Source: Clostridiales bacterium | GTDB taxonomy: Bacteria; Bacillota; Clostridia; Oscillospirales; Acutalibacteraceae | NCBI GenBank assembly: GCA_012840445.1 | Contig: DULI01000008.1 | Span: forward strand, 372,001-436,000 | Length of the DNA stretch: 64,000 nt | Direction of reading: 5' to 3' | Part shown: piece after piece, positions 21,941 through 42,876 of the stretch | How positions within the stretch are numbered: position 1 is the first letter of the stretch | How the letters are laid out: every line of letters begins with the position of its first letter | The notes under the pieces: generated by a model | Told to the model about the DNA's origin: nothing | Databases searched by the model: none | The model's input: only the letters and a program-made list of their open reading frames with translations | Program-made: the position numbers and the translations under genes

Positions 21941-23098
21941 CTAAAATTTTCGCCAAACCATTTTATTTACAATTCCAGTATAACTTTGAATTAATTTCAC
22001 GACCTTTACTGAAACGTTTTCATCAAAATAATCCGGCACCGTCGCTCCATAGTCGCCATTATTATCCATCTCTACAGCCAAGTCAACCGCTTGGAGCACC
22101 TGCTCTGTATTGATTCCCGCAAGAACAAAATTTCCCTTATCTAATGCTTCCGGTCGTTCTGTTGAGGTACGAATGCAGACCGCAGGGAATGGATTACCTA
22201 TCGACAGAAAATAACTGCTCTCCTCAGGCAATGTCCCACTGTCAGAAACTACAGCAAAGGCGTTTATCTGAAGCTGATTGTAATCGTGAAAACCAAGCGG
22301 TTGGTGCTGGATTACCCGCTTATCAAATACAAAGCCGCGTTTTTCAATAAATTTTCTGCTCCTGGGATGGCAGGAATAAAGTATAGGCATATCATACTTT
22401 TCGGCCATTGCGTTGACGGCGCCCATTAAACTGAAAAAGTTTGCCTCAATATCAATATTTTCCTCTCGATGGGCAGAAAGCAAAATGTATTTGCGCTTTT
22501 CAAGGCCGATTTTTTTTAGGATTTGGCTGGACTTTATCTGCTCAAGATTTGCATGCAAAACTTCTGGCATAGGCGACCCGGTAACAAAGATTCGCTCTTT
22601 TGGAGCACCTTCTGCCAATAGGTATCGGCGCGCATGTTCTGTGTAACACAGGTTTACATCCGCAACATGGTCTACAATGCGCCGATTTATCTCTTCCGGC
22701 AAATTTTCATCAAAGCAGCGGTTCCCCGCCTCCATATGAAAAACAGGAATTTTAAGCCGTTTTGCACTGATTGCTGATAGCGTCGAATTGGTATCCCCCA
22801 AGACCAGCAGTGCATCCGGCATTATTTCCGACATTAAATTATAGCTTCTCGAAATTATATTCCCAATGGTTTCGCCAAGGTCAGAACCTGCAGAATCAAG
22901 GTAATAATCAGGCTGGCGCAGTTTTAAATCCTCAAAAAATATCTGATTTAACGTATAGTCATAATTCTGGCCGGTGTGGACCAGGATATGGTCAAAATAC
23001 ATGTCGCACTTTTTTATAACCTCAGATAACCTGATAATCTCGGGCCTAGTACCAACTATTGTCATTAATTTCAATTTATTCATTTTTTCCTCTCTCAC
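21941..23098 (-). CDS. wecB: UDP-GlcNAc 2-epimerase-type enzyme (non-hydrolysing; WecB/CapG/WbjD-like)
   Basis: 385 aa. Seen: TIVGTRPEIIRLSEV at the N-terminus, HTGQNYD (about 42), HMEAGNRCFDENLPEEINRR (about 120-139), LLSAHREENID (about 207) and SDSGTLPEES (about 283), all hallmarks of the non-hydrolysing 2-epimerases. Known: WecB makes UDP-ManNAc, while CapG/WbjD/WbvD epimerise C2 of UDP-L-sugars. Here it directly follows a 4,6-dehydratase/5-epimerase and a reductase, so the L-sugar role is more likely. Last gene of the polysaccharide operon, and its start overlaps the end of the reductase gene. Confidence 0.9.
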   Translation of the reverse strand: MREEKMNKLKLMTIVGTRPEIIRLSEVIKKCDMYFDHILVHTGQNYDYTLNQIFFEDLKLRQPDYYLDSAGSDLGETIGNIISRSYNLMSEIMPDALLVLGDTNSTLSAISAKRLKIPVFHMEAGNRCFDENLPEEINRRIVDHVADVNLCYTEHARRYLLAEGAPKERIFVTGSPMPEVLHANLEQIKSSQILKKIGLEKRKYILLSAHREENIDIEANFFSLMGAVNAMAEKYDMPILYSCHPRSRKFIEKRGFVFDKRVIQHQPLGFHDYNQLQINAFAVVSDSGTLPEESSYFLSIGNPFPAVCIRTSTERPEALDKGNFVLAGINTEQVLQAVDLAVEMDNNGDYGATVPDYFDENVSVKVVKLIQSYTGIVNKMVWRKF

Positions 23099-23949
23099 AG
23101 TTTATAATGTGGATACATGTTTTTATGTTTCATTACCCAATCAGCAAGTTCTGATACCATAATCTCATAATCAGGGATTAGATAATCAAAATCATATTTG
23201 GTGCGCTTTAGTGATTTGTTATCGACTACATTTTCTGAGGGCATTATTGTTATTCTGTTATTCCTAAAATAACGGTTAAACAACTGCAAAAGCTCGTATT
23301 TGGAAATAGGATGGTCAGGAACCATATTATATAATCCATGCGCCTTTTGTTTAGCTGCAGCTTCTATTGTTTTAGCAAGTTGAAGTGTAGTCTGGCCGGT
23401 CCATATTGCATTAGTATATCCATTGATAGGACCCTGCTGTTTCATAAACCAGTTAAAAAGGCCTATTCCCTCAGGATTTAGATCAGGTCCAACAATCGAA
23501 TTGCGAATTGTTAGATTTTTGCCGTCTTCCAGTTCTCCAAGACCTTTTGATCTGCCATAAAAAGATTCGCTGTCACGATAGTCAGATTCAGTATAACCAC
23601 CGCGTTTGCCGGAAAAAACGCAGTCAGTGCTGATATGTATAACTTGTGTCTTTGTGTCAGAGGTTATATCTGCAAGAAAATGAGGTAAATATGAATTCAA
23701 TAATGTCGCCAACGCCTTATTATTTTCAGCAAACTGATTTAGGATTCCTATACAGTTGATGATTACATCAAATTTACCCTCATTTACTAATTTTCTAAGA
23801 AAATCTGTATCTTTTGCATCACCATCAACACTGTTTATATATTTTGATTTTGTTCTATCAAATCCAAAAACGTCATGGCCTTGTTCTTTAAAATAGAGAG
23901 AAACAGTGTGACCTGCCATTCCGTTACAGCCGAGTACCAGTAACTTCAT
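23095..23949 (-). CDS. RmlD-like SDR reductase (UDP-4-keto-L-sugar reductase)
   Basis: 284 aa. Seen: Rossmann loop GCNGMAGHTV (about 8-17), STDCVFSGKRGGYTE (about 108-122) and catalytic YGRSK (about 131-135, Y-x3-K). The length and motifs fit RmlD (dTDP-4-keto-rhamnose reductase) rather than CapF, which has an extra C-terminal cupin. Known: in the UDP-L-QuiNAc pathway (WbvB, WbvR, WbvD) an RmlD-like protein, WbvR, reduces the 4-keto-L-sugar. Inference: together with its two neighbours it makes UDP-L-QuiNAc or a close relative. It overlaps both neighbours by four bases. Confidence 0.85.
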   Translation of the reverse strand: MKLLVLGCNGMAGHTVSLYFKEQGHDVFGFDRTKSKYINSVDGDAKDTDFLRKLVNEGKFDVIINCIGILNQFAENNKALATLLNSYLPHFLADITSDTKTQVIHISTDCVFSGKRGGYTESDYRDSESFYGRSKGLGELEDGKNLTIRNSIVGPDLNPEGIGLFNWFMKQQGPINGYTNAIWTGQTTLQLAKTIEAAAKQKAHGLYNMVPDHPISKYELLQLFNRYFRNNRITIMPSENVVDNKSLKRTKYDFDYLIPDYEIMVSELADWVMKHKNMYPHYKL

Positions 23950-24998
23950 CTATTTTCCCCCCACTGTATTAGTTGTTCTTTTATATATGGCAAGGACAAA
24001 AGTTTGTCCTTCACCTGTGAGAGATCAAGCTGAACAGTATTGTTTGAGTTAAATTCGCTTATCGTACTACGGCGTTTGTCACCCTGGGAGAAGTATTTTT
24101 CATAATTTAACCCGCGCTTGTCCGCAGGAACGCGGTAAAAATTACCCATATCAATGGCATTGGCGCATTCCTCGTTGGTGAGAAGAGTTTCATACATCTT
24201 CTCGCCGTGGCGAATACCGATGATCCTGATGGGGTTATCGGCATGGAAAATTTCCTTAACCGCCTGAGCCAGCACACCAATGGTGCAGGCAGGAGCCTTT
24301 TGAACCATAATATCCCCTGATTCAGCATTTTCAAAGGCATATAGTACCAGATCAAGCGCTTCATCCAAACTCATAATAAAGCGGGTCATGGTGGGATCAG
24401 TTACAGTCAGCGGTTTGCCTTCCTTAATTTGTTCTATAAACAGCGGAACCACAGAGCCTCTCGAACATAATACGTTTCCGTATCTTGTGCAGCAGATTGT
24501 GGTACGGTCAGGGGATACAGTCCTGGATTTTGCTATGACCACTTTTTCCATCATGGCCTTGCTTGTACCCATGGCATTGACAGGATATGCCGCTTTGTCA
24601 GTAGACAGGCAGATAACCTTCTTTACCCCTGCCTCAATGGCTGCAGTAAGGACATTATCAGTCCCGATTACATTTGTCTTTACAGCTTCCAGTGGGAAAA
24701 ACTCGCAGGACGGTACCTGCTTTAAAGCTGCGGCATGAAATACGAAATCCACACCATGCATTGCACTTTTTACCGAAGCAAGATCCCGGACATCACCGAT
24801 ATAAAACCTGATTTTATCGGCTGCTTCCGGCATCTTTGCCTGATATTCATGGCGCATGTCATCCTGCTTTTTTTCATCCCGGGAAAAGATCCGGATTTCA
24901 CCAATATCGGTTTTAAGGAAACGGTTTAAAACCGCATTTCCAAAAGAACCAGTTCCCCCGGTGATTAGTAGGGTTTCATTGGCGAAAAGTGAACCCAT
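23946..24998 (-). CDS. UDP-GlcNAc 4,6-dehydratase/5-epimerase (CapE/WbjB/WbvB-like)
   Basis: 350 aa. Seen: GGTGSFGNAVLNRF (about 14-27), SRDEKKQDDMRHEY (about 39-52), STDKAAYPVNAMGTSK (about 127-142, with the M-x3-K variant of the SDR triad), RYGNVLCSRGSVVP (about 167) and GEKMYETLL (about 261). Known: the soluble short form with this pattern removes water across C4-C6 and inverts C5 of UDP-GlcNAc. It starts the three-step L-sugar module (this gene, the RmlD-like reductase, the 2-epimerase). A GGAGG ribosome site precedes the ATG. Confidence 0.9.
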   Translation of the reverse strand: MGSLFANETLLITGGTGSFGNAVLNRFLKTDIGEIRIFSRDEKKQDDMRHEYQAKMPEAADKIRFYIGDVRDLASVKSAMHGVDFVFHAAALKQVPSCEFFPLEAVKTNVIGTDNVLTAAIEAGVKKVICLSTDKAAYPVNAMGTSKAMMEKVVIAKSRTVSPDRTTICCTRYGNVLCSRGSVVPLFIEQIKEGKPLTVTDPTMTRFIMSLDEALDLVLYAFENAESGDIMVQKAPACTIGVLAQAVKEIFHADNPIRIIGIRHGEKMYETLLTNEECANAIDMGNFYRVPADKRGLNYEKYFSQGDKRRSTISEFNSNNTVQLDLSQVKDKLLSLPYIKEQLIQWGENR

Positions 24999-25022: not shown

Positions 25023-26375
25023 TTATTTTGTAGGTTTTTCTGCAATATAACGGTCAAGTGAAATTTGTTGAAGAACACAATAAGGCGCCAAAACAAAAAT
25101 ATTTGAAAATATAACCAAGATCCAACCCTTATAAATTTTAAATCCAATAAAAAGAAAAACAAATTTAATAACGACTCCAAATGTGTAGCATAACATTTGC
25201 AAACGCATTTTCCCAATGCCACAAACAATTGTCGACAAAATTCCAAGATATATTAGAACACCGCCAAATATTGCAAATGCCAATCCGTAAAAACAATTAA
25301 CTTGAATAGCATTATCTTGAAGCCACAGATTAATGATTAACTGTAAATACGGAATGATAAGAAACTCTGCACCGATTGCCACCCAACCAACCTGTTTTAA
25401 AAATCGGTATAGGCTATTTAACCATGTATAATCTTTTTCAGCCATAGCTTTTGTTACTGCAGACCAAACTGGAGTCAAAGCAAGTGCAAACAACGTTCCT
25501 GGAAGACTAAAAAGGCGATTATATACCTGATACTCAACTACATAAGAAGGATTTAAAAACTGAGATATAAAGAATTCATTAGTATTCATGATTATCATAT
25601 ACATTATTTGGCACCAAAAAAACGTACCTCCCAACTTAAAAACAGCTGTTGCATAATTACGCTTTACATATCTAAAACGAGGGAAACAACTTCTAATTTG
25701 CGTACAAAAAATAAATATGGTTGCAAGTAACAATGGCATATTTGAAGAAACTATATAAAAATCTGCCAACATTACTAAGTTAGATTCTGGGGAACGGGAT
25801 GGTGCTAACAACACAAAAATCAACTGCATTATGCTTGAAATTAAACTTATAAAATTATTTATAGCCGAATACTGCAATGCATATAAAATAGAATTAATAA
25901 GCCGAAAAAAGAACTGAAGCATAATTCCTAAAAACACACTTCGGACAACTCTGAGCATAACTTTAGGTGAAATTAAATCCGAAGAAATATTAAACACCGA
26001 GTTCCAGGGAATAAAATGAGACAATATAAGGCCAGTCAGTGCAATTATTATAGTCAAGACACCAACCATAAAATAAGCAGATGATATATATCCTCTCATT
26101 AAATGCTTATTGTTTTTAGCAATAGCTTCAACCAATTTATTACGCAAACCGTTTCCAATGCCTAAATCAAAATTCAGAACCCAAATCAATACTGACAAAA
26201 TAGTATACCAAACACCTAGAACTTTCTGTTCACTGAAATATCGCATATATGCTGGAATTGTTAAAAAAGAGATGACTAAAGCTGCACCTTTTACAAGGAA
26301 AGCACCGATAGTATTTTTTAATATCAACTGGTTAAGATTATTTGATTTGATTTTTTTAACTAGACTTTTTAGCAT
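25023..26375 (-). CDS. wzx: Polysaccharide flippase (Wzx, MOP superfamily)
   Basis: 450 aa. Seen: about 12-14 hydrophobic segments; starts with a Lys/Asn-rich N-terminus (LVKKIKSNNLNQL) and the first helix GAFLVKGAALVISFLTIPAYM, a usual start for Wzx/RfbX-like proteins. The segment NFDLGIGNGLRNKLVEA (about 70-86) is the conserved first cytoplasmic loop. Known: flips lipid-linked repeat units across the cytoplasmic membrane for polymerisation outside. It sits between glycosyltransferase genes and the nucleotide-sugar module. Very A/T-rich, as usual for such loci. Confidence 0.88.
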   Translation of the reverse strand: MLKSLVKKIKSNNLNQLILKNTIGAFLVKGAALVISFLTIPAYMRYFSEQKVLGVWYTILSVLIWVLNFDLGIGNGLRNKLVEAIAKNNKHLMRGYISSAYFMVGVLTIIIALTGLILSHFIPWNSVFNISSDLISPKVMLRVVRSVFLGIMLQFFFRLINSILYALQYSAINNFISLISSIMQLIFVLLAPSRSPESNLVMLADFYIVSSNMPLLLATIFIFCTQIRSCFPRFRYVKRNYATAVFKLGGTFFWCQIMYMIIMNTNEFFISQFLNPSYVVEYQVYNRLFSLPGTLFALALTPVWSAVTKAMAEKDYTWLNSLYRFLKQVGWVAIGAEFLIIPYLQLIINLWLQDNAIQVNCFYGLAFAIFGGVLIYLGILSTIVCGIGKMRLQMLCYTFGVVIKFVFLFIGFKIYKGWILVIFSNIFVLAPYCVLQQISLDRYIAEKPTK

Positions 26376-26376
26376 A

Positions 26377-27513
26377 TTAAGATTTCCTAATCCATTCTTG
26401 AATTGTGCTTATAAAATCCTCATCTAACTCTCTTAGACGCTCACGGCTTGAAAATGAGCTGCTTAAATCTATTGATTTTATAGTATCAGCAATAGACTGT
26501 GGAGTTGAATCTTCGTAATAGTATAACAAATCATTTATTCTGGAAGCAGTTAGAACAGGAATTTTTACAGAAACAACTCTAAGGCCATTTGACAGATATG
26601 ACAAAACTTTAGACGGAAATGACGTATCATTAAACTTGGCATCAGGAATTTGGGTACTAAGCCCGATATGACAACGCTGGATAAATTTTTTGTATTCGTC
26701 ACCTCTTAAACATCCGTCATATGTTATCCTGGCTGACGTTTTGGTAGAGACCTCATTAATCAATGACAGAATACATTCTGTTTCATCTTTGCTGCCGAAA
26801 CCTAATATGTGCAGGTGATAGCGTTCATCAAGAAATTGACCAGCTAACACAGCAGTTTTGGCACCTTTATGTAAACCAAACGTTCCTGCATACACTACAT
26901 GAATTCTCCCATCATTAAGAGGAGTCTCACATATATCCTCAACTTGATATGTACCGTAATTGATTGCGAAAGGTTTATTCTCTTTATTTAATTTAATATT
27001 CAGCAGTTCAGTAGAAAACAGATATTTATCTGCTAATTTAAATAAATCAAACTCTCTTTTAGTCTTTAACCTTGAATAATGACTTACATCTGAATAAATC
27101 TCTTCAACCTCTAAAATCAAATCAAACTTCTTAAGCTTTTTAAGCCATGTGATTATTCGTACCAGGTACATAGAATGATACACTATTACAAAGTCGTCTT
27201 TTTTAATATGAAATATGAGATAAAAAAACAACCAGAGCAAAGAAAACCACATTAATATATGGCGTAAAATACGGCTTGATGTATAAATACTAGGAGGGTA
27301 AACAATTTTTTTATCATTTTTTGAGGATAATTGTTTTACAGTTGGCTTTTCAGTAATCCAAGCCGGTGATACTATTTCCACATCAGCACCAGCATTTTTT
27401 AATGCCTGTATAATATAAGTCATTTTTGTGACTGCAGCCAAAGAACATGATCTCTTAATTGGTGAATCGGGTGGGCAGTAAAAGCCTATATACTTAATTT
27501 TTTGTCCTTTCAT
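26377..27513 (-). CDS. Glycosyltransferase (GT-B fold, GT4-like)
   Basis: 378 aa. Seen: N-terminal domain starting KYIGFYCPPDSP; middle segment HVVYAGTFGLHKGAKTAV (about 211-228), which opens the nucleotide-sugar-binding domain; HIGLSTQIPDAKFNDTSFPSK (about 295-315) near the usual E-x7-E region. A hydrophobic stretch at about 88-110 (ILMWFSLLWLFFYLIF) suggests membrane association. Known: GT4-type enzymes add sugars to undecaprenyl-linked units. The motif is divergent, so donor and acceptor are unknown. The ATG overlaps the end of the previous gene (ATGA). Confidence 0.78.
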   Translation of the reverse strand: MKGQKIKYIGFYCPPDSPIKRSCSLAAVTKMTYIIQALKNAGADVEIVSPAWITEKPTVKQLSSKNDKKIVYPPSIYTSSRILRHILMWFSLLWLFFYLIFHIKKDDFVIVYHSMYLVRIITWLKKLKKFDLILEVEEIYSDVSHYSRLKTKREFDLFKLADKYLFSTELLNIKLNKENKPFAINYGTYQVEDICETPLNDGRIHVVYAGTFGLHKGAKTAVLAGQFLDERYHLHILGFGSKDETECILSLINEVSTKTSARITYDGCLRGDEYKKFIQRCHIGLSTQIPDAKFNDTSFPSKVLSYLSNGLRVVSVKIPVLTASRINDLLYYYEDSTPQSIADTIKSIDLSSSFSSRERLRELDEDFISTIQEWIRKS

Positions 27514-28739
27514 TTTGCAACTCCTTTTATCACCAATTCTTTATAAATAGTATCATATTGCAAAAACATAGCTTCTTTTGAATAACGCTTTCTAGCTTCT
27601 TCCAGCCATTTTTGTTGTTCCAGTTGGCTTAAGCTTCTCTTTTTATTTAGATTTTTTATAACAGCATTATATAAAGCCTGTACATCACCGTATTCCACAA
27701 ACTCGCATGTATTTTCTAAAGCAATTAATTCCGGTGCACCAGCTTTAAATCCCACAACCGGGGTCCCACAGCATAGGGATTCTGCAACAACCATGCTGAA
27801 GGTTTCACGTTTACTAGCCAGCAAAGTTAAATCAGCCAAAGAATAAAACTCTGACAGTTCTTCTTGATTGTTTGTGAAACGTATTGCTACTATATTTTCT
27901 GGAAGGTTTTTATAATCACCATTAAAGCCAATAACAAAAATTTTAATTTTTTGACCTAATAATTTTTTTGCAAGCTCGGTAATGTATTTTCCTCCTTTTC
28001 TTTCGTCATTATAATCTGGTGTAACAAATAAAAGGGCTTTTTCATCATTAATGTTATATTTTAATTTTAAAGCTTGCGCATTTTTTGGTTTAAAAATCTC
28101 TGTTTCCACTCCATTATATATAACATTAAATTCTTTGCCTTTCAAAATTGGTGACTGCCTTGCACGATGATCTAGCCACTCTGATACAGAAACTATCCTA
28201 ACATCAAAATTCTCAAAAGTCTTTTTCATAAGCAACCATGCTTTGGCAGTGCGGTCAATAAACAATGATCTTGTAGCCTCTCTTAAATGAGGGCATGAGC
28301 CACAACCCGATTTCCACTTTTCACATTCATAAGCATAACCACAGCTTCCGGTATATAAAAATTCGGCATGTAATGTCAGTATTGTGGGAATACCGTTTGC
28401 TTTCAAAAAATTCATCAGACGATATATATTAACGGTATATCCATTAATACAGTGCAGATGTACAATATCGGGTTTGATCTTTTTTAACAATCTGAGCAAT
28501 TTTGAAGTAGCAAAATATGCTCCACCGTATTGCAGGGCACCAAATCTTGCAAATAACGCCTGCAATTTTGCCTCAAAATCGGAGGAAATTTTGTAAACTC
28601 CCTGTTCTTTAGGTGCTTTACCTCTACCATAGCAAACATAAGATTCATATCCATTACGTTTTAACATTTGATTTAAATCATTTACTATTTTTCCTGTGCT
28701 TCCCCTGCGATACAGAACATTTATTTGTAAAACTTTCAT
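27510..28739 (-). CDS. GT4-family glycosyltransferase
   Basis: 409 aa from ATG 28739 (an extended start at 28808 would overlap the polymerase gene and lacks conserved sequence). Seen: MKVLQINVLYRRGSTGKIV, a classic start for WcaK/EpsF-like GT4 enzymes with the acceptor-side loop GSTGK; HLHCINGY (about 94); a Cys-rich segment with GSCGYAYECEKWKSGCGSCP (about 131-150) that may bind metal or form a lid; ESLCCGTPVVGFKAGAPE (about 323-340) with the E-x7-E-like nucleotide-sugar site. Known: retaining transferases that build polysaccharide repeat units. Sugar specificity unknown. Confidence 0.85.
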   Translation of the reverse strand: MKVLQINVLYRRGSTGKIVNDLNQMLKRNGYESYVCYGRGKAPKEQGVYKISSDFEAKLQALFARFGALQYGGAYFATSKLLRLLKKIKPDIVHLHCINGYTVNIYRLMNFLKANGIPTILTLHAEFLYTGSCGYAYECEKWKSGCGSCPHLREATRSLFIDRTAKAWLLMKKTFENFDVRIVSVSEWLDHRARQSPILKGKEFNVIYNGVETEIFKPKNAQALKLKYNINDEKALLFVTPDYNDERKGGKYITELAKKLLGQKIKIFVIGFNGDYKNLPENIVAIRFTNNQEELSEFYSLADLTLLASKRETFSMVVAESLCCGTPVVGFKAGAPELIALENTCEFVEYGDVQALYNAVIKNLNKKRSLSQLEQQKWLEEARKRYSKEAMFLQYDTIYKELVIKGVAK

Positions 28740-28749
28740 TTTCAAACCT

Positions 28750-29819
28750 CTATTCCCAATAAAACTTATAAGGGAAAACTTGCAATATATCTGCCCCGGT
28801 ATACGCATTATAGAAGAAATAGATTACAAAAAATAATATCATAATTAGTCGGGCAGTCTTAACCAAAAGAAATAATTTTTCTTTTGAGTATAAAATAGTA
28901 TTTGAAATCAATACAGGAATATAAACCAGAAAATAATAGTTCATCCGCATTGCCATTGTATTGATAGGTGCAAATAATTGAATAGCTAAAATTAAAAGCA
29001 TTATATTACGCAATCCCAATGTATTTGAATCAAGATCATTATCATTAACCATAAAAAATGAAAAGGCAAGAAACAGGGCAAAAAGTATGATCATTGTATA
29101 GGCATTAGTGCTTTGTATTTCCGCATATTTTTCATAATAGCTTGAGCCTAACAATCTGATAAAAAACAGGAACAATTGTTTATTATATATAAAAGCAGCT
29201 AATAACGAAGGAATAGCAAATAACAACCACTTTTTTGTTATTTTGCTATGATATATTGGATACAATAATAAAGCAATAACGGCCGATCTGTGGAAAAGTA
29301 CAGCTAACAAAGTTATCAATATAAATCGAAGAAATTTTTTTTTTTTGCAAAATAAAATGCTATAATGCTTAACGAGATTGCTAATGCCTGCCTTAACCCG
29401 GAAAAAATCATAACAAAATTGGACATATTAATAAAAAGTGCAATTGTAAGCAGAGGGTCAGTAGACTCTTTTTTATATAATAAGTATATTGGATAAATAA
29501 TAATAAAGCTTGTAATAGAAAGAAATACGCTGAAATTATCTGTAAATGATCCAATGATTTTATTGAACAGTACATAACCTATTTCAATTAACATACTATT
29601 GCCAAATAGTTCAGTCCAAGGTATTGTGCGTATTGTATCAAAATAGTTTTTATAAGTGTATATATCAACTCCGACTTCATAGCTCCTCAAAGACAATAAA
29701 ATCCACAGGAAAGAAAAGAACAGAAAAAAAGTTATAGTTTTTGTTTTATCACTTTTGGTTAGATAATAAAACAAAGAAATGATTCCCGGAATTATTACTA
29801 AAATATAATATACTACCAT
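28750..29819 (-). pseudogene. EpsG/Wzy-type polysaccharide polymerase split at a 12-A tract
   Basis: Two overlapping frames make one protein of about 360 aa. The first (29819-29316) starts MVVYYILVIIPG and includes YEVGVDIYTYKNYF and FSGLRQALAISL, the conserved EpsG core. It then reaches GCA plus A12 (sense strand; T12 at 29335-29346) and stops. The second (28750 to about 29335) continues LRFILITLLAVLFHRSA, the expected next EpsG segment, with more membrane helices. Thirteen or ten A would restore a single frame. Known: EpsG/Wzy proteins polymerise repeat units. Possible causes are phase variation, transcriptional slippage that rescues some full-length product, true decay, or an assembly indel. 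The rest of both frames is intact. Confidence 0.8.
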
Positions 29820-29830
29820 TATGGACCTCT

Positions 29831-30781
29831 CTACTGTGTTCTTAATCTATTAAAAATAAGATGATACATTCGGCGAATAGACGGACGAATACTGCCATAT
29901 AACTGCATTGCTTTAATTGTTGCAACATGATTTGGTGAAAACTTTTTGTATGACAAACACTTTTCTATAATTGAATGATTATTATACTTGGCATTATGTA
30001 AAGCATAATAATATAGATAATTAAACTCATCTGTTGAAATATCAAGAAAAACTGGTATTAACTCTTCGGCCATGACAGCACAGTTTTCGTAATAGAGTTT
30101 TCTGCCTGTTTGGGTCAGCTGTTTTTCGTGTACCCTTGACATTACTCCTACTTTACTAGTTATATATAGACCATAACCAGCAATGAATATTTTATACCAC
30201 ATCATTACATCCTGTGTATAACGCAAACGCTCGTCAAATAAGCCGACTTCATCAAACACCATCCTGGGTATTAAAAAGGCACATCCTGAAAACGAACCCC
30301 GTTTTAAAATGGCTTTTAGCGCTTCCTGGGATGAAATAAATCTATCTTTATTAAAAAATCCATCATATTTTTTTCTATGGATAACATTCGAATTTTTGTC
30401 AATCTGAACACTATTGGACAATATTATACATTTACTGTTATTTAGTGTTTTTAATATATTTACCTGATCCTCAATTTTGGTTGGATAATACATGTCATCG
30501 TGAGACAACCAGGAAAAATAATCACCGGACATATGGCTTATTGCTAAATTCAAAGCGGAAGAAACGCCGCCGTTGGGTTTGCTAAGGTAAATTACTTTAT
30601 CTCCATAACCTTTAATGACAGCATCGGTTGCTCCATTATCATTTGACCCATCATTAACAACTATAACTTCAATATTGGGGTATGTCTGTGCAAGGGCACT
30701 GTCAATAGCCTGTGACACATAATCCGCCCCATTATATACTGGGATCACAATTGATACAAGAGGGTAATTGCTTGGTTTCAA
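29831..30781 (-). CDS. GT2-family glycosyltransferase
   Basis: 316 aa. Seen: VSIVIPVYNGADYVSQAIDS (about 9-28), VIVVNDGSNDNG (about 40), LSHDDMYYP (about 95, the D-x-D-like metal/UDP site HDD) and the acceptor-loop region with RLRYTQDVMMWYKI (about 187-200, ED-like base). Known: inverting GT-A enzymes using UDP- or dTDP-sugars. It lies 11 bases before the polymerase gene, in the same operon. The C-terminal ~80 residues are alpha-helical and not conserved. Confidence 0.88.
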   Translation of the reverse strand: MKPSNYPLVSIVIPVYNGADYVSQAIDSALAQTYPNIEVIVVNDGSNDNGATDAVIKGYGDKVIYLSKPNGGVSSALNLAISHMSGDYFSWLSHDDMYYPTKIEDQVNILKTLNNSKCIILSNSVQIDKNSNVIHRKKYDGFFNKDRFISSQEALKAILKRGSFSGCAFLIPRMVFDEVGLFDERLRYTQDVMMWYKIFIAGYGLYITSKVGVMSRVHEKQLTQTGRKLYYENCAVMAEELIPVFLDISTDEFNYLYYYALHNAKYNNHSIIEKCLSYKKFSPNHVATIKAMQLYGSIRPSIRRMYHLIFNRLRTQ

Positions 30782-30812: not shown

Positions 30813-31945
30813 TTAAAGCCTGCCGGAATAGATATCCTTTAACTCAGATTTTACCACCTGTAAAGAATACATGTGAGCTTTTTCCCGTCCAGCCAGTCCC
30901 ATTTGTTGTCGCAAATCAGGATTAATTGAAAGATTAATGATCGCTTCTGCAAATTCTTCTGCTTTATAGGCAGAAACCAAAAATCCAGTAACACAATTAT
31001 CAACCAATTCATTATGCCCCCGGTTGCGGGATGCTACAACAGGCTTCCCACACGCCATCGCCTCAATAATATTCATAGGGAGCCCTTCCCTGCGGCTGGC
31101 AGATACCACCATATCGCAAAGCAAATAATAGTCTAGAATATCCGAGCGATACCCTAAAAGCTGGGCATGATTTTCCATATTTGATTGGCTAATAATTTTT
31201 GATAACATATCATAATTCGATCCATTTCCAGCTAACAACAGGCGGAAATTGGGAACTTGTGCTACGATTTGCGGCAAAGCCTTTAGGAGTGTAACCTGAT
31301 TCTTATTATTATTTAATTCGCCAACACATAAAGCTATTATATCGTCTTCATTAAAACCCTTTGTTTTTCTTAGACTGTAAGCCTCTTCGGACGAACCAGC
31401 CCTAAAACGTTCAAATTACATCCAACACTATGAATTCTACAGATTTTTGTTCTGAAACGCTTGTTTATTGCTAAACGAAAATCCTCATCACAAATTGTAA
31501 TTAAAATATCAGTATTTTTAGAAAGAAATTTTTCAACAGGATAATATAATATCCAGTTTTTTAATGGAGCACCTTTATAAAAATGGAATCCATGGGCAGT
31601 ATAGATTACTTTTGTTCCTTTCTTCCTTGCAGCCCGGGCGGCCAGGCGTGTCAAAACGCCGCCCACAGGGGTGTTGCAGTGGATTATCTCATAGTCCATA
31701 CTGTCTATTATCTTTTTCAATTTCTTGTAAGCGCGTATATTGCTACGGTCTAACGGTGAACGTGAAAAAGGTACATCAAAAACCTTGTCTGCGAAATCCA
31801 AAACCATGCCGTTTTTTTCAGAAAGATTATTCCGTGCAGCAACATGAACCTCAAACCCATTTTCGTGCAACATATCCGCCAAAGGCTTATGAAAACTAAC
31901 AATATGGCTTTGAACTGTGGCGGTCAATAAAACTTTCTTTGGCAT
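30813..31945 (-). pseudogene. GT4-family glycosyltransferase interrupted by a frameshift
   Basis: The N-terminal half starts at ATG 31945 (GAGGTG upstream), with TATVQSHIVSFHKPLADML and YTAHGFHFYKGAP, as in WbpL-partner/CapM-type GT4 enzymes. It runs out of frame near 31399-31411 and stops at 31370. The C-terminal half is open in another frame from about 31405 to 30813, with VGELNNNKNQVTLLKAL, SRREGLPMNIIEAMACGKPV and the E-x7-E-type site. One extra base after GNLN (AAC-CGT) would join them as NRFRAGSSEE, the usual family sequence at that point. So one base appears lost, by mutation or sequencing error. Without it the enzyme should be inactive. Confidence 0.8.
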
Positions 31946-31966
31946 ATCGGCAAGCACCTCATGTTC

Positions 31967-34444: not shown

Positions 34445-35074
34445 CTATTTAGAATCTGCTCCTGAATCGTTTTTAACTTGAAGATATATGTTTTCTCTCT
34501 TGAATATTTTCTGAAAAGTTATAAATAAAATTTTAACATCAAGCCATAAGTTGGATTTATTTACATACTCAATATCAATACGGATTCTTTCATCCCAACT
34601 GACAGAATTCCTTACTGTCACTTGAGCTAATCCTGTCATCCCGGGGCGCATCAAAAACCTCGTTTTAGCCCAATCGGGATAATTATCATATCCGTTGTAC
34701 GGATAATAAGTTACAGGGGGCCTTGGGCCTACCAAGCTCATTTCCCCTTTTAATACATTAATAAGCTGCGGCAGCTCATCCAGGCTGGTAGCTTTCAAAA
34801 ATCTTCCTATTTTTGTAATCCTGTTGTCATTTTCGCTTTTAATGGTAAGGCCGTCCCCGATGTTTTCAGCATTGACTACCATTGTCCTGAACTTAATAAT
34901 GTTAAATACCTTTCCATCCTTGCCAAGCCGCTCCTGCCTAAAAAAAATTGGCCCTTTTGATGTTAATTTTATTAGAAAAGAAATAACAATAAGTATTGGT
35001 AAAATAATAATCAAGCCTATCAAACTACCCAAAATATCAATTAATCTTTTTAAAAACAGATTTATTTTTCGCAT
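34445..35074 (-). CDS. Undecaprenyl-phosphate sugar phosphotransferase (PglC-like small PGT)
   Basis: 209 aa from ATG 35074 (a TTG at 35083 is the alternative). Seen: membrane-entering helix at about 12-35 (DILGSLIGLIIILPILIVISFLI), then RQERLGKDGKVFNIIKFRTM (about 47-66), SLDELPQLINVLKGEMSLVGPRPP (about 96-119, shown here across two motifs) and RPGMTGLAQV. Known: the monotopic phosphoglycosyl transferases of this minimal size (PglC, EpsL, WcaJ core) move a phospho-sugar onto undecaprenyl phosphate, starting the repeat unit. It follows the aminotransferase gene, so the first sugar is probably a 4-amino- or diacetamido-trideoxy hexose. Confidence 0.9.
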   Translation of the reverse strand: MRKINLFLKRLIDILGSLIGLIIILPILIVISFLIKLTSKGPIFFRQERLGKDGKVFNIIKFRTMVVNAENIGDGLTIKSENDNRITKIGRFLKATSLDELPQLINVLKGEMSLVGPRPPVTYYPYNGYDNYPDWAKTRFLMRPGMTGLAQVTVRNSVSWDERIRIDIEYVNKSNLWLDVKILFITFQKIFKRENIYLQVKNDSGADSK

Positions 35075-35127
35075 ACCACTCAAAATCCTGACAAAATTAA
35101 ATTAATCTATATGAAAATACTTATGCA

Positions 35128-36351
35128 TCATTTAAAGCAACTCTTGACAATTTCAATAATCTTATCCTGTTCGTCCGGAGTCATCTTAATATCGCTGGGA
35201 AGGCAAAGACCACGATTAAAAATATCAGCACTAACACTAATTTTACTTTCGCTATAATCATCCGTTACGCTTCGCATGGTCCCTTCGCGGAATATTAACA
35301 AATTATTTTTGAATAACGGCTGCATATGCATAGGCTTCCAAATAGGTCTACCCTCTACATTGCAATTTGCAAGCGTTTCAAGGATTTCTGTTGGGCACGA
35401 CTTGCCGGGCTCGGAATCATAAAAAGCTTTATTGTCGGTTCTGATTTGTTTGCACATAGCTTCTTTATCAATCAGCATACACGAAAGCCAGAAATTAGGC
35501 TCCATATTATATTCATCATAAGGATTCATTGTTATAGGTAAGTCCTTAAAGCCATCTTTGTATCTTTCATAGATGGCTTTTTTCTTAGCTATATGTTCTT
35601 CCAAATAGGGTATCTGACCACGGATAACTCCTGCAATTACATTGCTCATCCGGTAATTATAACCGATCTCTTCATGCTGATACCAGGGCGCATCTTCACG
35701 GCTCTGGGTAGACCACTTGCGGGCCTTGTTTGCCGCCTCCAAATCATCTGTCAAAAGCATTCCGCCAGATGAACCGGTTATAATCTTGTTTCCATTAAAA
35801 GAAATTGCATTATATGTACCAAATGAACCAGTTTGTTTTCCTTTATAGGTAGCACCAAGCGACTCAGCCGCATCCTCAATCAAAATGGCGCCGTACTTTT
35901 TGCAAATATCACTAATCTCATCAAGTTTTGCAGGTGTACCATAAAGGTTTACAACAATAACAGCCTTTGTGTCAGGATAGATTTTAAAGGCTTCTTCAAG
36001 CACGACCGGGTCCATATTCCAAGTATCATATTCGGAGTCAATAAAAATTGGGTTAGCCTTTTCATAAATAACTGGATTTACAGTCGCACTAAATGTTAGA
36101 TCAGAACAGAAAACGTTATCTCCTTGCTTTACACCGGCAAGTTTAACCGCCAGATGCAGTGCAGATGTACCGCTTGATAGTGCAACTGCATATTTACATC
36201 CGACCATTTCACAAATTAAGCGTTCAATTTCGTCAATATTCTCCCCAACTGTAGACATCCAGTTAGTATCGTAAGCTTGCTGTACAAATTTAATCTCTTC
36301 TCCGTGCATTGTGGGTGAAGAAAGCCAAATCTTCTTTTCGAACCTTGTCAT
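35128..36351 (-). CDS. DegT/DnrJ/EryC1 aminotransferase (PglE-like)
   Basis: 407 aa from ATG 36351 (GGAG six bases before; TTG at 36363 overlaps that site). Seen: NWMSTVGENIDEIE (about 25), SSGTSALHLA (about 53), EDAAESLGATYKG (about 152), PLP lysine in FNGNKIITGSSGG (about 178) and NYRMSNVIAG (about 225). Known: transfers an amino group to the C4 keto sugar made by a 4,6-dehydratase. The dehydratase encoded divergently at 36591 is its natural partner, giving UDP-4-amino-4,6-dideoxy-GlcNAc as in the PglF/PglE pathway. First gene of the minus-strand polysaccharide operon. Confidence 0.9.
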   Translation of the reverse strand: MTRFEKKIWLSSPTMHGEEIKFVQQAYDTNWMSTVGENIDEIERLICEMVGCKYAVALSSGTSALHLAVKLAGVKQGDNVFCSDLTFSATVNPVIYEKANPIFIDSEYDTWNMDPVVLEEAFKIYPDTKAVIVVNLYGTPAKLDEISDICKKYGAILIEDAAESLGATYKGKQTGSFGTYNAISFNGNKIITGSSGGMLLTDDLEAANKARKWSTQSREDAPWYQHEEIGYNYRMSNVIAGVIRGQIPYLEEHIAKKKAIYERYKDGFKDLPITMNPYDEYNMEPNFWLSCMLIDKEAMCKQIRTDNKAFYDSEPGKSCPTEILETLANCNVEGRPIWKPMHMQPLFKNNLLIFREGTMRSVTDDYSESKISVSADIFNRGLCLPSDIKMTPDEQDKIIEIVKSCFK

Positions 36352-36505
36352 TTTGTTCTCCAAATTATATATTAAGGTAAGTTATATAAATTTCAAAACA
36401 AACTAGCACCGGCAAGATTATAGATATTATACATTAATATGACAATAAATACAACCAAATATAAAGAAATTTATGTAAACTTACATATATAATATGCAAT
36501 AATAT

Positions 36506-39785: not shown

Positions 39786-41264
39786 TTACAATATGATGCA
39801 AATCAGACCGCTGCAACCCTCGTTAATTACCCGCTCGATGGTTTCCTGCAACCTCATCCTGGCATCGGCAGGCATGCGCGCAAGCTTGGTATGCAGACCT
39901 TCATTGACAAGCTCGTGCAACGATTTGCCAAATATGTTGGAATCCCAGATTTTAATCGGGTCTTCTTCAAACTCCTTGAGCAAGTACATAACCAGGTCTT
40001 CACTTTGTTTTTCCGACCCGACAATTGGGGCGATTTCAGTGGTTATCGTCGCCTTCATCATATGGATTGACGGCGCCGATGCGCGCAGGCGTACACCGTA
40101 TCTGCCACCCTGCTTCATCATTTCGGGTTCTTCGAGTACCAGTTCTTCTATTGACGGCATAACTATACCGTACCCGGTTGCCTCCACCTCGTCCAGCGCA
40201 TTCTTAATGCGCATATATTCGCGCTTGGTTTTGGCAAGCTCTATCATGCTGATCATCAGGTCTTCCTCGTCTTTAATCTCAAGGCCCGAATTATCAGCAA
40301 GTATTTTGTAGAACAGCTTGCGGTTGATTTCTACTTTCAGTCTGGCGCATCCGGTTCCAAGGTCAATGTTGGAAGTGTTGGCGGCCTCGACATGTTCGCA
40401 TTCGCACAGCACATTTTGCAGATTACTAATCTCTCTGATATGACGAATCTGCTCGGCAGATTTCTTAATAGTTTCAAACAGATTGTTTCTAAGCCAGTGG
40501 TCAGGACCAAGGGCATTTATCCACCTCGGCAACCCTATTGCGATTTCCTTTACGGGGAATTCATACAGTACTCTGGCTATTATGTTCCTAATATCCTGTT
40601 CCTGTAGCTCCAAACAGTTGACAGGTAGCACCGGGACATTATATTTTCGGGTAAGCCTTTCTGCCAGTTCCTGTGCATGCGCGGTTTCGGGATACATGCA
40701 ATTAAGCAGCACGATAAAGGGTTTGTTAATCTGTTTGAGTTCATCTATCACCCTTTCCTCTGCCTCTTCGTACTCATCCCGCGGTATGTCGCTAATGCTG
40801 CCGTCAGTAGTTATCACCATCCCGATGGTGGAGTGCTCGTTGATAACCTTTCTGGTGCCTATTTCGGCCGCCATATTAAAAGGAATTGGCTCATCATACC
40901 AGGGCGTCATTACCATTCTGGGCTGGTCACCCTCTATGTAGCCCAGCGAGCTTGGCACAATGTAGCCGACACAGTCAATCATGCGCACCCTGAATGACGA
41001 GTTTTCCTCAAGCTGGACTTCCACCGCCGATTCGGGAATAAATTTGGGCTCGGTGGTCATAATAGTGCGTCCGGCGGCAGACTGGGGCAGTTCGTCGTTT
41101 GCGCGTTCTCTCTGGTACTCGCTTGTGATATTCGGCAGCACAAGTGTATCCATGAATCGCTTAATAAAGGTTGATTTACCGGTGCGCACGGGGCCTACTA
41201 CGCCAATATAAATGTCCCCGTTTGTGCGCATTGCAATGTCTTGATATATGCTACGCTCTTCCAT
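39786..41264 (-). CDS. spoIVA: Stage IV sporulation protein A (coat basement ATPase)
   Basis: 492 aa from the ATG at 41264, the conserved MEERSIYQDIA start; an upstream extension to 41315 reads into a hairpin and is rejected. Seen: Walker A GPVRTGKSTF (residues 24-33), VRMIDCVGYIVP (about 105, Walker B region), NKPFIVLLNC (about 195) and a conserved C-terminus ending in SGLICIIL. Known: SpoIVA hydrolyses ATP to form a static polymer on the forespore outer membrane and is anchored there by SpoVM; all coat layers build on it. The spoVM gene lies 1.7 kb upstream in the same orientation, with the SPOCS-LysM gene between. Confidence 0.97.
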   Translation of the reverse strand: MEERSIYQDIAMRTNGDIYIGVVGPVRTGKSTFIKRFMDTLVLPNITSEYQRERANDELPQSAAGRTIMTTEPKFIPESAVEVQLEENSSFRVRMIDCVGYIVPSSLGYIEGDQPRMVMTPWYDEPIPFNMAAEIGTRKVINEHSTIGMVITTDGSISDIPRDEYEEAEERVIDELKQINKPFIVLLNCMYPETAHAQELAERLTRKYNVPVLPVNCLELQEQDIRNIIARVLYEFPVKEIAIGLPRWINALGPDHWLRNNLFETIKKSAEQIRHIREISNLQNVLCECEHVEAANTSNIDLGTGCARLKVEINRKLFYKILADNSGLEIKDEEDLMISMIELAKTKREYMRIKNALDEVEATGYGIVMPSIEELVLEEPEMMKQGGRYGVRLRASAPSIHMMKATITTEIAPIVGSEKQSEDLVMYLLKEFEEDPIKIWDSNIFGKSLHELVNEGLHTKLARMPADARMRLQETIERVINEGCSGLICIIL

Positions 41265-41287
41265 AGTTCCACTCACGCCTTTCTGGT

Positions 41288-41314
41288 GTGCCTTTCGGCT
41301 ACGAGAAAGGCACA
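41288..41314 (-). other. Hairpin between the SPOCS-LysM gene and spoIVA
   Basis: TGTGCCTTTC and GAAAGGCACA pair perfectly on the minus strand around about eight bases, without a following T-run. It may stabilise or process the transcript rather than end it. Confidence 0.45.
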
Positions 41315-41343
41315 TTCAGTATTTTTTCAAAATATTTATGTAA

Positions 41344-42876
41344 TCAGCAGGGAATCAGAAGCATTTTACTTGCCTGCAGCACTTCGTCTTTCAATGCATT
41401 CATTTCTGAAACCCGGCTGGGAGAAGTGTTATATCTTTTTGCTATGTCCCAAACCCTTTCACCGGCATCGGCATAGTATATGACTAGCGATGTCGTCTCG
41501 TCCTTTGCTTTGGGCTTGTTTTCGTCCACATTAATCGATACTATCAGCGGCAGCCTGATTACATCAAACACAATAGCGGATACCGCCAGTTCAACCCGTA
41601 CATCTATCCGGTCGTTGCCAATAAGGGTATAGCTTGAAGCTACAGCTTCGATATGAGGATCGCACCGCATATCTGAAACTTCGGTATCCATATCATACCG
41701 GTACTCGAAATCTACCGGCCGCTCCAAATAAATCGGTATATTTTGCGGGTCATATGCAAGGAAGCATATATGCACCGTTCCGTTTATTATCAGTTGTTTG
41801 CCCTCCGCTCGAACCCCGTTGATTTCCGAATCGCACCACAAATCCGCTACCGAGCTTATTGTATCGGGCGAAAATTCAAGCGTTTTCTTGCAAAGATAGC
41901 TTTCATTAATTTTGCAGGCTATCCTTTCAGTCAATACTTCCCGTTTTTCAATTTCGGTTTCGTAATTAATTGAATACGCGTCGTAAACTACCGGTATTTC
42001 CCTGTTGCAATAAGCAGAAATCATGATAGAGAGCTTTGCGCTTAAAATAAAGCTCCTGGCTTCGCCGCTCATCCCAGTGCGTGGTTTCACCTCAAGCGAG
42101 ACAACCTCTGCCTTGGCGTCGCATTCGCAGTCTTCGTTGACACCGTCAATATCTACTATCTGGCTAAATGGCAGAGCGCTTTCCAAAGATTGGGGAAGCG
42201 TTCCGTCTTCGGGGATATAAAGCGTGTTGACCATTAATTCCCCTTTAATAACTGCCTTGTTGCTGATTATCTTGCACTCATTGATGACAGCCCTGGCGTC
42301 TGAACGAAGCAGATTCCTGATCGCCGGCTGTCCCTGCCCCAATTCAAGCTCATCCTCGATTATCAGGTACTTTTCGGACATGCCCATCGGGTTGGTTATT
42401 CTGGCCTCGCCTCTTAATATTTGTATGTCCTCATTGTCTACATCGGATAACACCTCGGTTGTGTTCTTGGCAATTATTTTGGCATTAAGGGTTAGCGCAC
42501 CGTGAACCTCAAGTTTACGGGGGGTTATCGCCCTATAATTTACATATTCAGGTCTCGCCCGTACAACTACTGAACCGTAATCAACCGCTTCGTCGGTTAC
42601 AAAGCTGCGATTAAAGGGTGCCAGATATTCATAGCTGTTAATGCCATTATCTGCGTCTGCAAAAATTAAATTAATGCAGGCACAGCCTTCGATAGACAAT
42701 GTTGTACCGTTGAGGGTCTTTGAGTTTATTTTGGGGGTTATTTTGCACTTTAAAACTCGTGAAATGTCCGGACAGTAATCCGGTAAGGTAAAATCGGTGT
42801 CAATTGTCTGCTCGACAGTCTGGTCGAACATTACTTCATTCGTGGCGACACCCTGTCCAGTAACCCTTAAATCCAT
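41344..42876 (-). CDS. SPOCS (DUF3794) and LysM domain spore coat/cortex protein
   Basis: 510 aa. Seen: N-terminal SPOCS-type repeat with VFDQTVEQTI-like and FTLPDYCPDISRVLKC (about 30-45); a second and third repeat of the same fold, with ADAKVEVVSLEVKP-like and SFILSAKLSI; C-terminal LysM (about 455-510) with YYADAGERVWDIAKRYNTSP. Known: SPOCS proteins occur in Clostridia spores; LysM binds peptidoglycan, as in SafA of Bacillus, which links the coat to the cortex. Placed between spoVM and spoIVA, it probably joins the coat base layer to the cortex. AGAGGTAGG precedes the ATG. Confidence 0.9.
   Translation of the reverse strand: MDLRVTGQGVATNEVMFDQTVEQTIDTDFTLPDYCPDISRVLKCKITPKINSKTLNGTTLSIEGCACINLIFADADNGINSYEYLAPFNRSFVTDEAVDYGSVVVRARPEYVNYRAITPRKLEVHGALTLNAKIIAKNTTEVLSDVDNEDIQILRGEARITNPMGMSEKYLIIEDELELGQGQPAIRNLLRSDARAVINECKIISNKAVIKGELMVNTLYIPEDGTLPQSLESALPFSQIVDIDGVNEDCECDAKAEVVSLEVKPRTGMSGEARSFILSAKLSIMISAYCNREIPVVYDAYSINYETEIEKREVLTERIACKINESYLCKKTLEFSPDTISSVADLWCDSEINGVRAEGKQLIINGTVHICFLAYDPQNIPIYLERPVDFEYRYDMDTEVSDMRCDPHIEAVASSYTLIGNDRIDVRVELAVSAIVFDVIRLPLIVSINVDENKPKAKDETTSLVIYYADAGERVWDIAKRYNTSPSRVSEMNALKDEVLQASKMLLIPC

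Follow-up and report, generated by a model that had tools for sequence, protein, structure and literature searches.

Homopolymeric tracts in which the change of one nucleotide costs a gene its frame are known from the surface genes of several bacteria. In A. baumannii, the homopolymers of the capsule genes gtr6 and wzx are hot spots for loss of function and mutate under phage selection, the former from A9 to A8 and the latter from T9 to T10 (PMC10249906). V. cholerae O1 carries poly-A tracts in the phase-variable O-antigen genes wbeL (A8) and manA (A9), where a one-nucleotide change truncates the protein; they act as contingency loci and are conserved among strains of O1, and reversion has been shown for manA (PMC3441752). 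The surface gene inlA of the Gram-positive Listeria monocytogenes is frequently inactivated by frameshifts in a poly(A) tract at its 5' end (PMC2831843). Another kind of homopolymer is represented by the A9 run of Thermus dnaX, by Shigella mxiE and by the A runs of IS elements, in which a run of at least 9 nt lies between overlapping frames that jointly encode one protein (PMC1088944).

The window analyzed here, which comprises the whole stretch of 64,000 nt, contains an A12 tract in the gene for a predicted EpsG-type (Wzy-like) polysaccharide polymerase, and this tract is probably an ordinary case of the known kind of homopolymer frame loss. As in A. baumannii, an A/T run lies in a surface-polysaccharide gene that would be inactivated by the loss of frame through one nucleotide, but the mutations of A. 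baumannii were directly observed, whereas we have a single assembly with an out-of-frame A12, and the affected gene codes for a polymerase. The locus shares with V. cholerae O1 the poly-A run in a polysaccharide gene and the truncation of the protein, but differs in that the tract is unique among the genomes searched and in that a second gene of the cluster, coding for a GT4 glycosyltransferase, is broken as well. With inlA, it has in common a poly(A) tract in a surface gene, which lies in the middle of the gene instead of at the 5' end. The overlapping frames resemble those of dnaX, mxiE and the IS elements, whereas the tract is not conserved and a fused EpsG product is hypothetical. We consider it the most probable reading, at roughly 55%, that a slipped-strand insertion or deletion occurred in the sampled lineage and caused an ordinary loss of frame rather than representing an evolved on/off switch. 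The features of the split gene are as follows:

29335..29346, minus strand: homopolymer with the plus-strand sequence T12, read as A12 in the coding sense, within a stretch of lysine codons
29316..29819, minus strand: N-terminal EpsG fragment of 167 amino acids with an ATG start, matching PF14897 positions 2-132 (E 3.8e-24)
28750..29427, minus strand: C-terminal EpsG fragment, matching PF14897 positions 110-326 (E 5.4e-23)

Both halves belong to the PF14897 family, as indicated by bit scores of 85.9 for the N-terminal fragment and 82.1 for the longer reading of the C-terminal one against a curated cut-off of 30.1 bits. The C-terminal frame opens at 29427 and has its first internal TTG in the list of open reading frames at 29319; read from this TTG, the fragment still scores 68.6 bits and covers PF14897 positions 138-326. 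The frames share the stretch 29316-29427, which includes the A12 tract, and the stop codon of the N-terminal fragment starts 16 nt past the tract. As assembled, the gene is not intact but changes its frame at A12, which bears out the proposal of the sequence-only reading that a homopolymer splits the polymerase. That reading also stated that the EpsG-like sequence continues in the +1 frame after the tract; it does continue directly, but the codon starts on the minus strand are congruent to 2 mod 3 in the N-terminal and to 0 mod 3 in the C-terminal frame, and the latter is therefore, in ribosomal terms, the -1 (equivalently +2) frame and not the +1 frame, the deviation being one of convention. 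The susceptibility of the tract to slippage in replication and transcription, which was proposed as well, agrees with its length, which falls within the published ranges (PMC1088944, PMC5574713, PMC6260861). Since the genome has no PF14897 member other than the split gene, the proposed shutdown of the whole capsule upon loss of this gene is plausible.

We analyzed how unusual such a run is in the genome of 1.88 Mb (30 contigs), which contains 15 A/T runs of at least 9 nt. Only three of these reach 10 nt or more, namely one A10, one A11 and the A12 of the EpsG gene as the longest of all; the other A/T runs of the 64 kb window do not exceed 8 nt. When Markov models of order 1 to 3 were fitted to the longest contig of the genome (442 kb), they predicted 216-274 runs of at least 9 nt and 12-15 runs of at least 12 nt; only one run of the latter length was observed. 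Long A/T runs are strongly purged from this genome, by about 15-fold, and A12 is the longest survivor; this agrees with the avoidance of such runs that is reported to be general in bacteria (PMC1088944). A few G runs of at least 8 nt are also present. Because the EpsG gene has a G+C content of only 28% and its upstream part uses AAA for all lysines (nine AAA and zero AAG codons), a long run is not improbable in this gene, and a run of at least 12 nt arose in about 3% of simulations of a gene with this composition. Among the genomes of the same family, 103 of 398 (26%) contain A runs of at least 12 nt. These are mostly intergenic, as judged from 30 sampled loci (one per genome), of which only the EpsG A12 clearly splits a gene, while two others (L112 and L122) are ambiguous with overlapping open frames. 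A T12 run in another genome (L136) was rejected as a gene-splitting candidate, since it sits just past the stop codon of grpE.

The seven closest orthologues (L006, L093-L097 and L110; 34-42% identity), from six genomes that share the family or the order with the present one, all contain an uninterrupted EpsG gene. Their A runs at the aligned site are only 3-7 nt long, and the A runs in all aligned homologue genes reach 8 nt at most. The aligned loop is rich in lysine and arginine in the orthologues, with motifs such as RKKQ, RRKK, RKRK, RKKK and KKNL. Since the seven closest orthologues have only A3-A7 at this place, the tract appears to have arisen in the sampled lineage, inside a naturally lysine-rich loop. 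We found no close DNA copy of the locus in the genus, represented by this genome alone, or in about 400 family genomes, and searches of GTDB contigs on the protein level and of IMG/VR contigs for a pattern with variable tract length returned nothing useful; none of these searches yielded a tract-length variant.

The fate of genic runs seems to depend on their length. The six 8-nt runs within genes of the window and the four genic 9-nt runs elsewhere in the genome all lie in open reading frames, but both genic runs of at least 10 nt split their gene, as predicted by length-dependent slippage. The second of these is a T10 run in the coding sense (C18:229770-229779; L038:1501-1510), which appears to split a gene for a DUF6560-like membrane protein in the -1 sense, while the A11 run is intergenic. 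With two long genic runs to judge from, the threshold is suggestive rather than statistical; it fits a slippage, be it biological or technical, that becomes steeply more frequent in longer runs. The genes with 9-nt runs (L026:1501-1509, L033:1501-1509, L045:1501-1509 and L027:1501-1509) code for a LytR-CpsA-Psr protein, a membrane protein, a 582-amino acid protein without Pfam match, and YidC. The membrane protein adjoins a glycosyltransferase and is a possible polymerase or ligase; two of the four runs are in likely genes for cell-surface polymers. Long open frames exist for both mutS and mutL, so there seems to be no mutator state to explain A12. A frameshift scan of contig C18 by codon usage flagged the GT4 gene and missed the EpsG gene, and was too noisy for counting breaks. 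Three suspicious adjacent gene pairs elsewhere on the contig were rejected as split genes, because they represent separate real genes according to Pfam.

According to the favored account of slippage followed by ordinary loss of frame, the A12 run would have arisen among lysine codons, all of them AAA, in the conserved Lys/Arg-rich loop of EpsG, and the unstable homopolymer would then have undergone a slipped-strand insertion or deletion that left the gene split, in a cluster that would already have carried the frameshift in the GT4 gene. The tract, the split, the absence of the tract from the relatives and the second broken gene are observed, whereas a real lesion, its origin through slippage and the loss of the product of the cluster are inferred. 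Some full-length EpsG may still be formed through slippage of RNA polymerase or a -1 ribosomal shift on A-AAA-AAA. The second broken gene lies in the same polysaccharide cluster, 2 kb upstream of the EpsG A12. The relevant features of the cluster are as follows:

31370..31957, minus strand: GT4 glycosyltransferase, N-terminal half of the second broken gene (PF13477/PF13439)
30813..31415, minus strand: GT4 glycosyltransferase, C-terminal half with the glycosyltransferase group 1 C-domain, in the -1 frame (PF00534 positions 6-171)
29831..30781, minus strand: GT2 glycosyltransferase, intact (PF00535)
27510..28808, minus strand: GT4-type glycosyltransferase, intact (PF13692/PF00534/PF13439)
25023..26375, minus strand: candidate Wzx-type flippase (PF01943, E 2.6e-5, a weak match below the cut-off)
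34445..35083, minus strand: initiating sugar-phosphate transferase (Bac_transf), intact (PF02397, E 4.8e-69)
35128..36363, minus strand: nucleotide-sugar aminotransferase, LegC/PseC-like (TIGR04181 and TIGR03588, below the curated cut-offs)
21941..24998, minus strand: three nucleotide-sugar enzymes, namely a WecB-like epimerase, an RmlD-like reductase and a Polysacc_synt_2 dehydratase

Judged by these predicted functions, the content of the cluster appears to be as expected for a Wzx/Wzy-type pathway. The whole broken GT4 gene spans 30813-31957 and changes its frame within the overlap of its two halves at 31370-31415 (about 46 nt), where the longest run is TTTT; the break has the same -1 sense as that of the EpsG gene. 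A real lesion should block the pathway however long the A tract is, and the frameshift at A12 would then belong to a cluster that was already losing its function. Should the lesion be an assembly error instead, the assembly would contain single-base errors in the -1 sense of the EpsG break; A12 would be the likeliest place for another one, and its length becomes suspect too. Outside the two breaks, the similarity of the fragments to their families is still good, which suggests that the decay, if real, would be recent.

It is possible, though doubtful, that the true tract has an in-frame length and that the polymerase gene is intact, the split being an artefact of assembly or consensus calling. 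This explanation and the favored one both describe a slippage-prone tract that was caught outside its frame, which is the account with the best support. We found no 16S rRNA gene in the genome, which is scored 99.99% complete; this is usual for metagenome-assembled genomes and fits such an origin. The breaks of the EpsG, GT4 and DUF6560-like genes are all of the -1 sense, as would be caused by single-base drop-outs, and spurious indels in homopolymers are known to occur even with Illumina sequencing, although they are worst in runs of more than 14 bp (PMC8808543). The error rate does not seem to be high, as all ten genic runs of 8-9 nt are in frame and the three suspicious gene pairs turned out to be separate. 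We kept this explanation partly because a fixed loss of EpsG is less comfortable than it may appear: losing a Wzy polymerase can be costly by trapping undecaprenyl phosphate (PMC11813082), and the initiating transferase of the cluster looks intact.

The sequence-only reading proposed a candidate phase switch, in which selection keeps the tract long and replication slippage toggles the polymerase and hence the polysaccharide. We consider this unlikely. Switching of surface polysaccharide genes by poly-A tracts does exist, as illustrated by wbeL and manA of V. cholerae (PMC3441752), and the position of the longest run of a purged genome in a surface-polysaccharide polymerase suggestively counts against ordinary mutation and in favor of a switch. 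However, while a long homopolymer inside a surface gene is indeed present, it is not retained in related genes. The absence of the tract from relatives had been named beforehand as an observation that would speak against the proposal, and the seven closest orthologues indeed lack it. Moreover, the tract is located mid-gene, the genome gives no hint of a set of homopolymer contingency loci, its only three A/T runs of at least 10 nt do not form a family of A/T switches, and length variants did not turn up in the copy searches described above. Because a second gene of this cluster, that of the GT4, is broken at a site without any run longer than TTTT, the A tract alone should not toggle the polysaccharide unless this break is an error, and either reading of the GT4 lesion weakens the phase-switch hypothesis. 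A way out would be that this GT4 might be dispensable for a polymerizable repeat unit. If real, a switch would offer a simple route to variation of the surface polysaccharide, e.g. under phage attack, in an uncultured Clostridia-type lineage. The main lesson from this case is that, before a long homopolymer known from one assembly is labeled a contingency locus, it should be supported on the level of reads and its neighboring genes should be checked.

Another explanation, which we regard as quite improbable, assumes that A12 is tolerated because slippage of RNA polymerase or -1 ribosomal frameshifting on A-AAA-AAA yields enough full-length polymerase. The sign of the frame change fits, since one additional nucleotide in the mRNA corresponds to the favored slip at A/T runs; single-nucleotide insertions dominate the transcription errors at such runs and increase with their length (PMC5574713). 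The N-terminal frame also reads GCA AAA AAA, representing a -1 slippery site of the type X-XXY-YYZ between overlapping frames of one protein, and Thermus dnaX (A9) and Shigella mxiE provide precedents (PMC1088944). On the other hand, the tract is not conserved, whereas functional slippage sites such as those of IS elements are preserved, and the RNA structure downstream of the tract was no better than that of shuffled sequences (z-values of 0.28, -0.48 and 0.16). In addition, RNA polymerase of E. coli slips poorly on poly(A) compared to poly(T) (PMC6260861). The combined proposal that changes in the length of A12 switch the surface polysaccharide and that slippage of RNA polymerase provides a leaky supply of full-length enzyme in the off state appears more doubtful still. 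Finally, the overlap of the N-terminal stop codon (29316-29318) with the internal TTG of the C-terminal frame (29317-29319) as TTGA would fit fragments that are made separately and join as a working two-chain polymerase. This is extremely unlikely, since the TTG is not preceded by a Shine-Dalgarno-like sequence, the similarity of the C-terminal frame extends upstream of the TTG as far as the tract, and no homologue among the aligned EpsG proteins is split likewise.

The polysaccharide cluster is adjoined by genes for SpoIVA and a SipL-domain (SPOCS) protein (window positions 39786-42876, minus strand). Their presence makes it probable that the organism is of the Clostridia type and forms spores.
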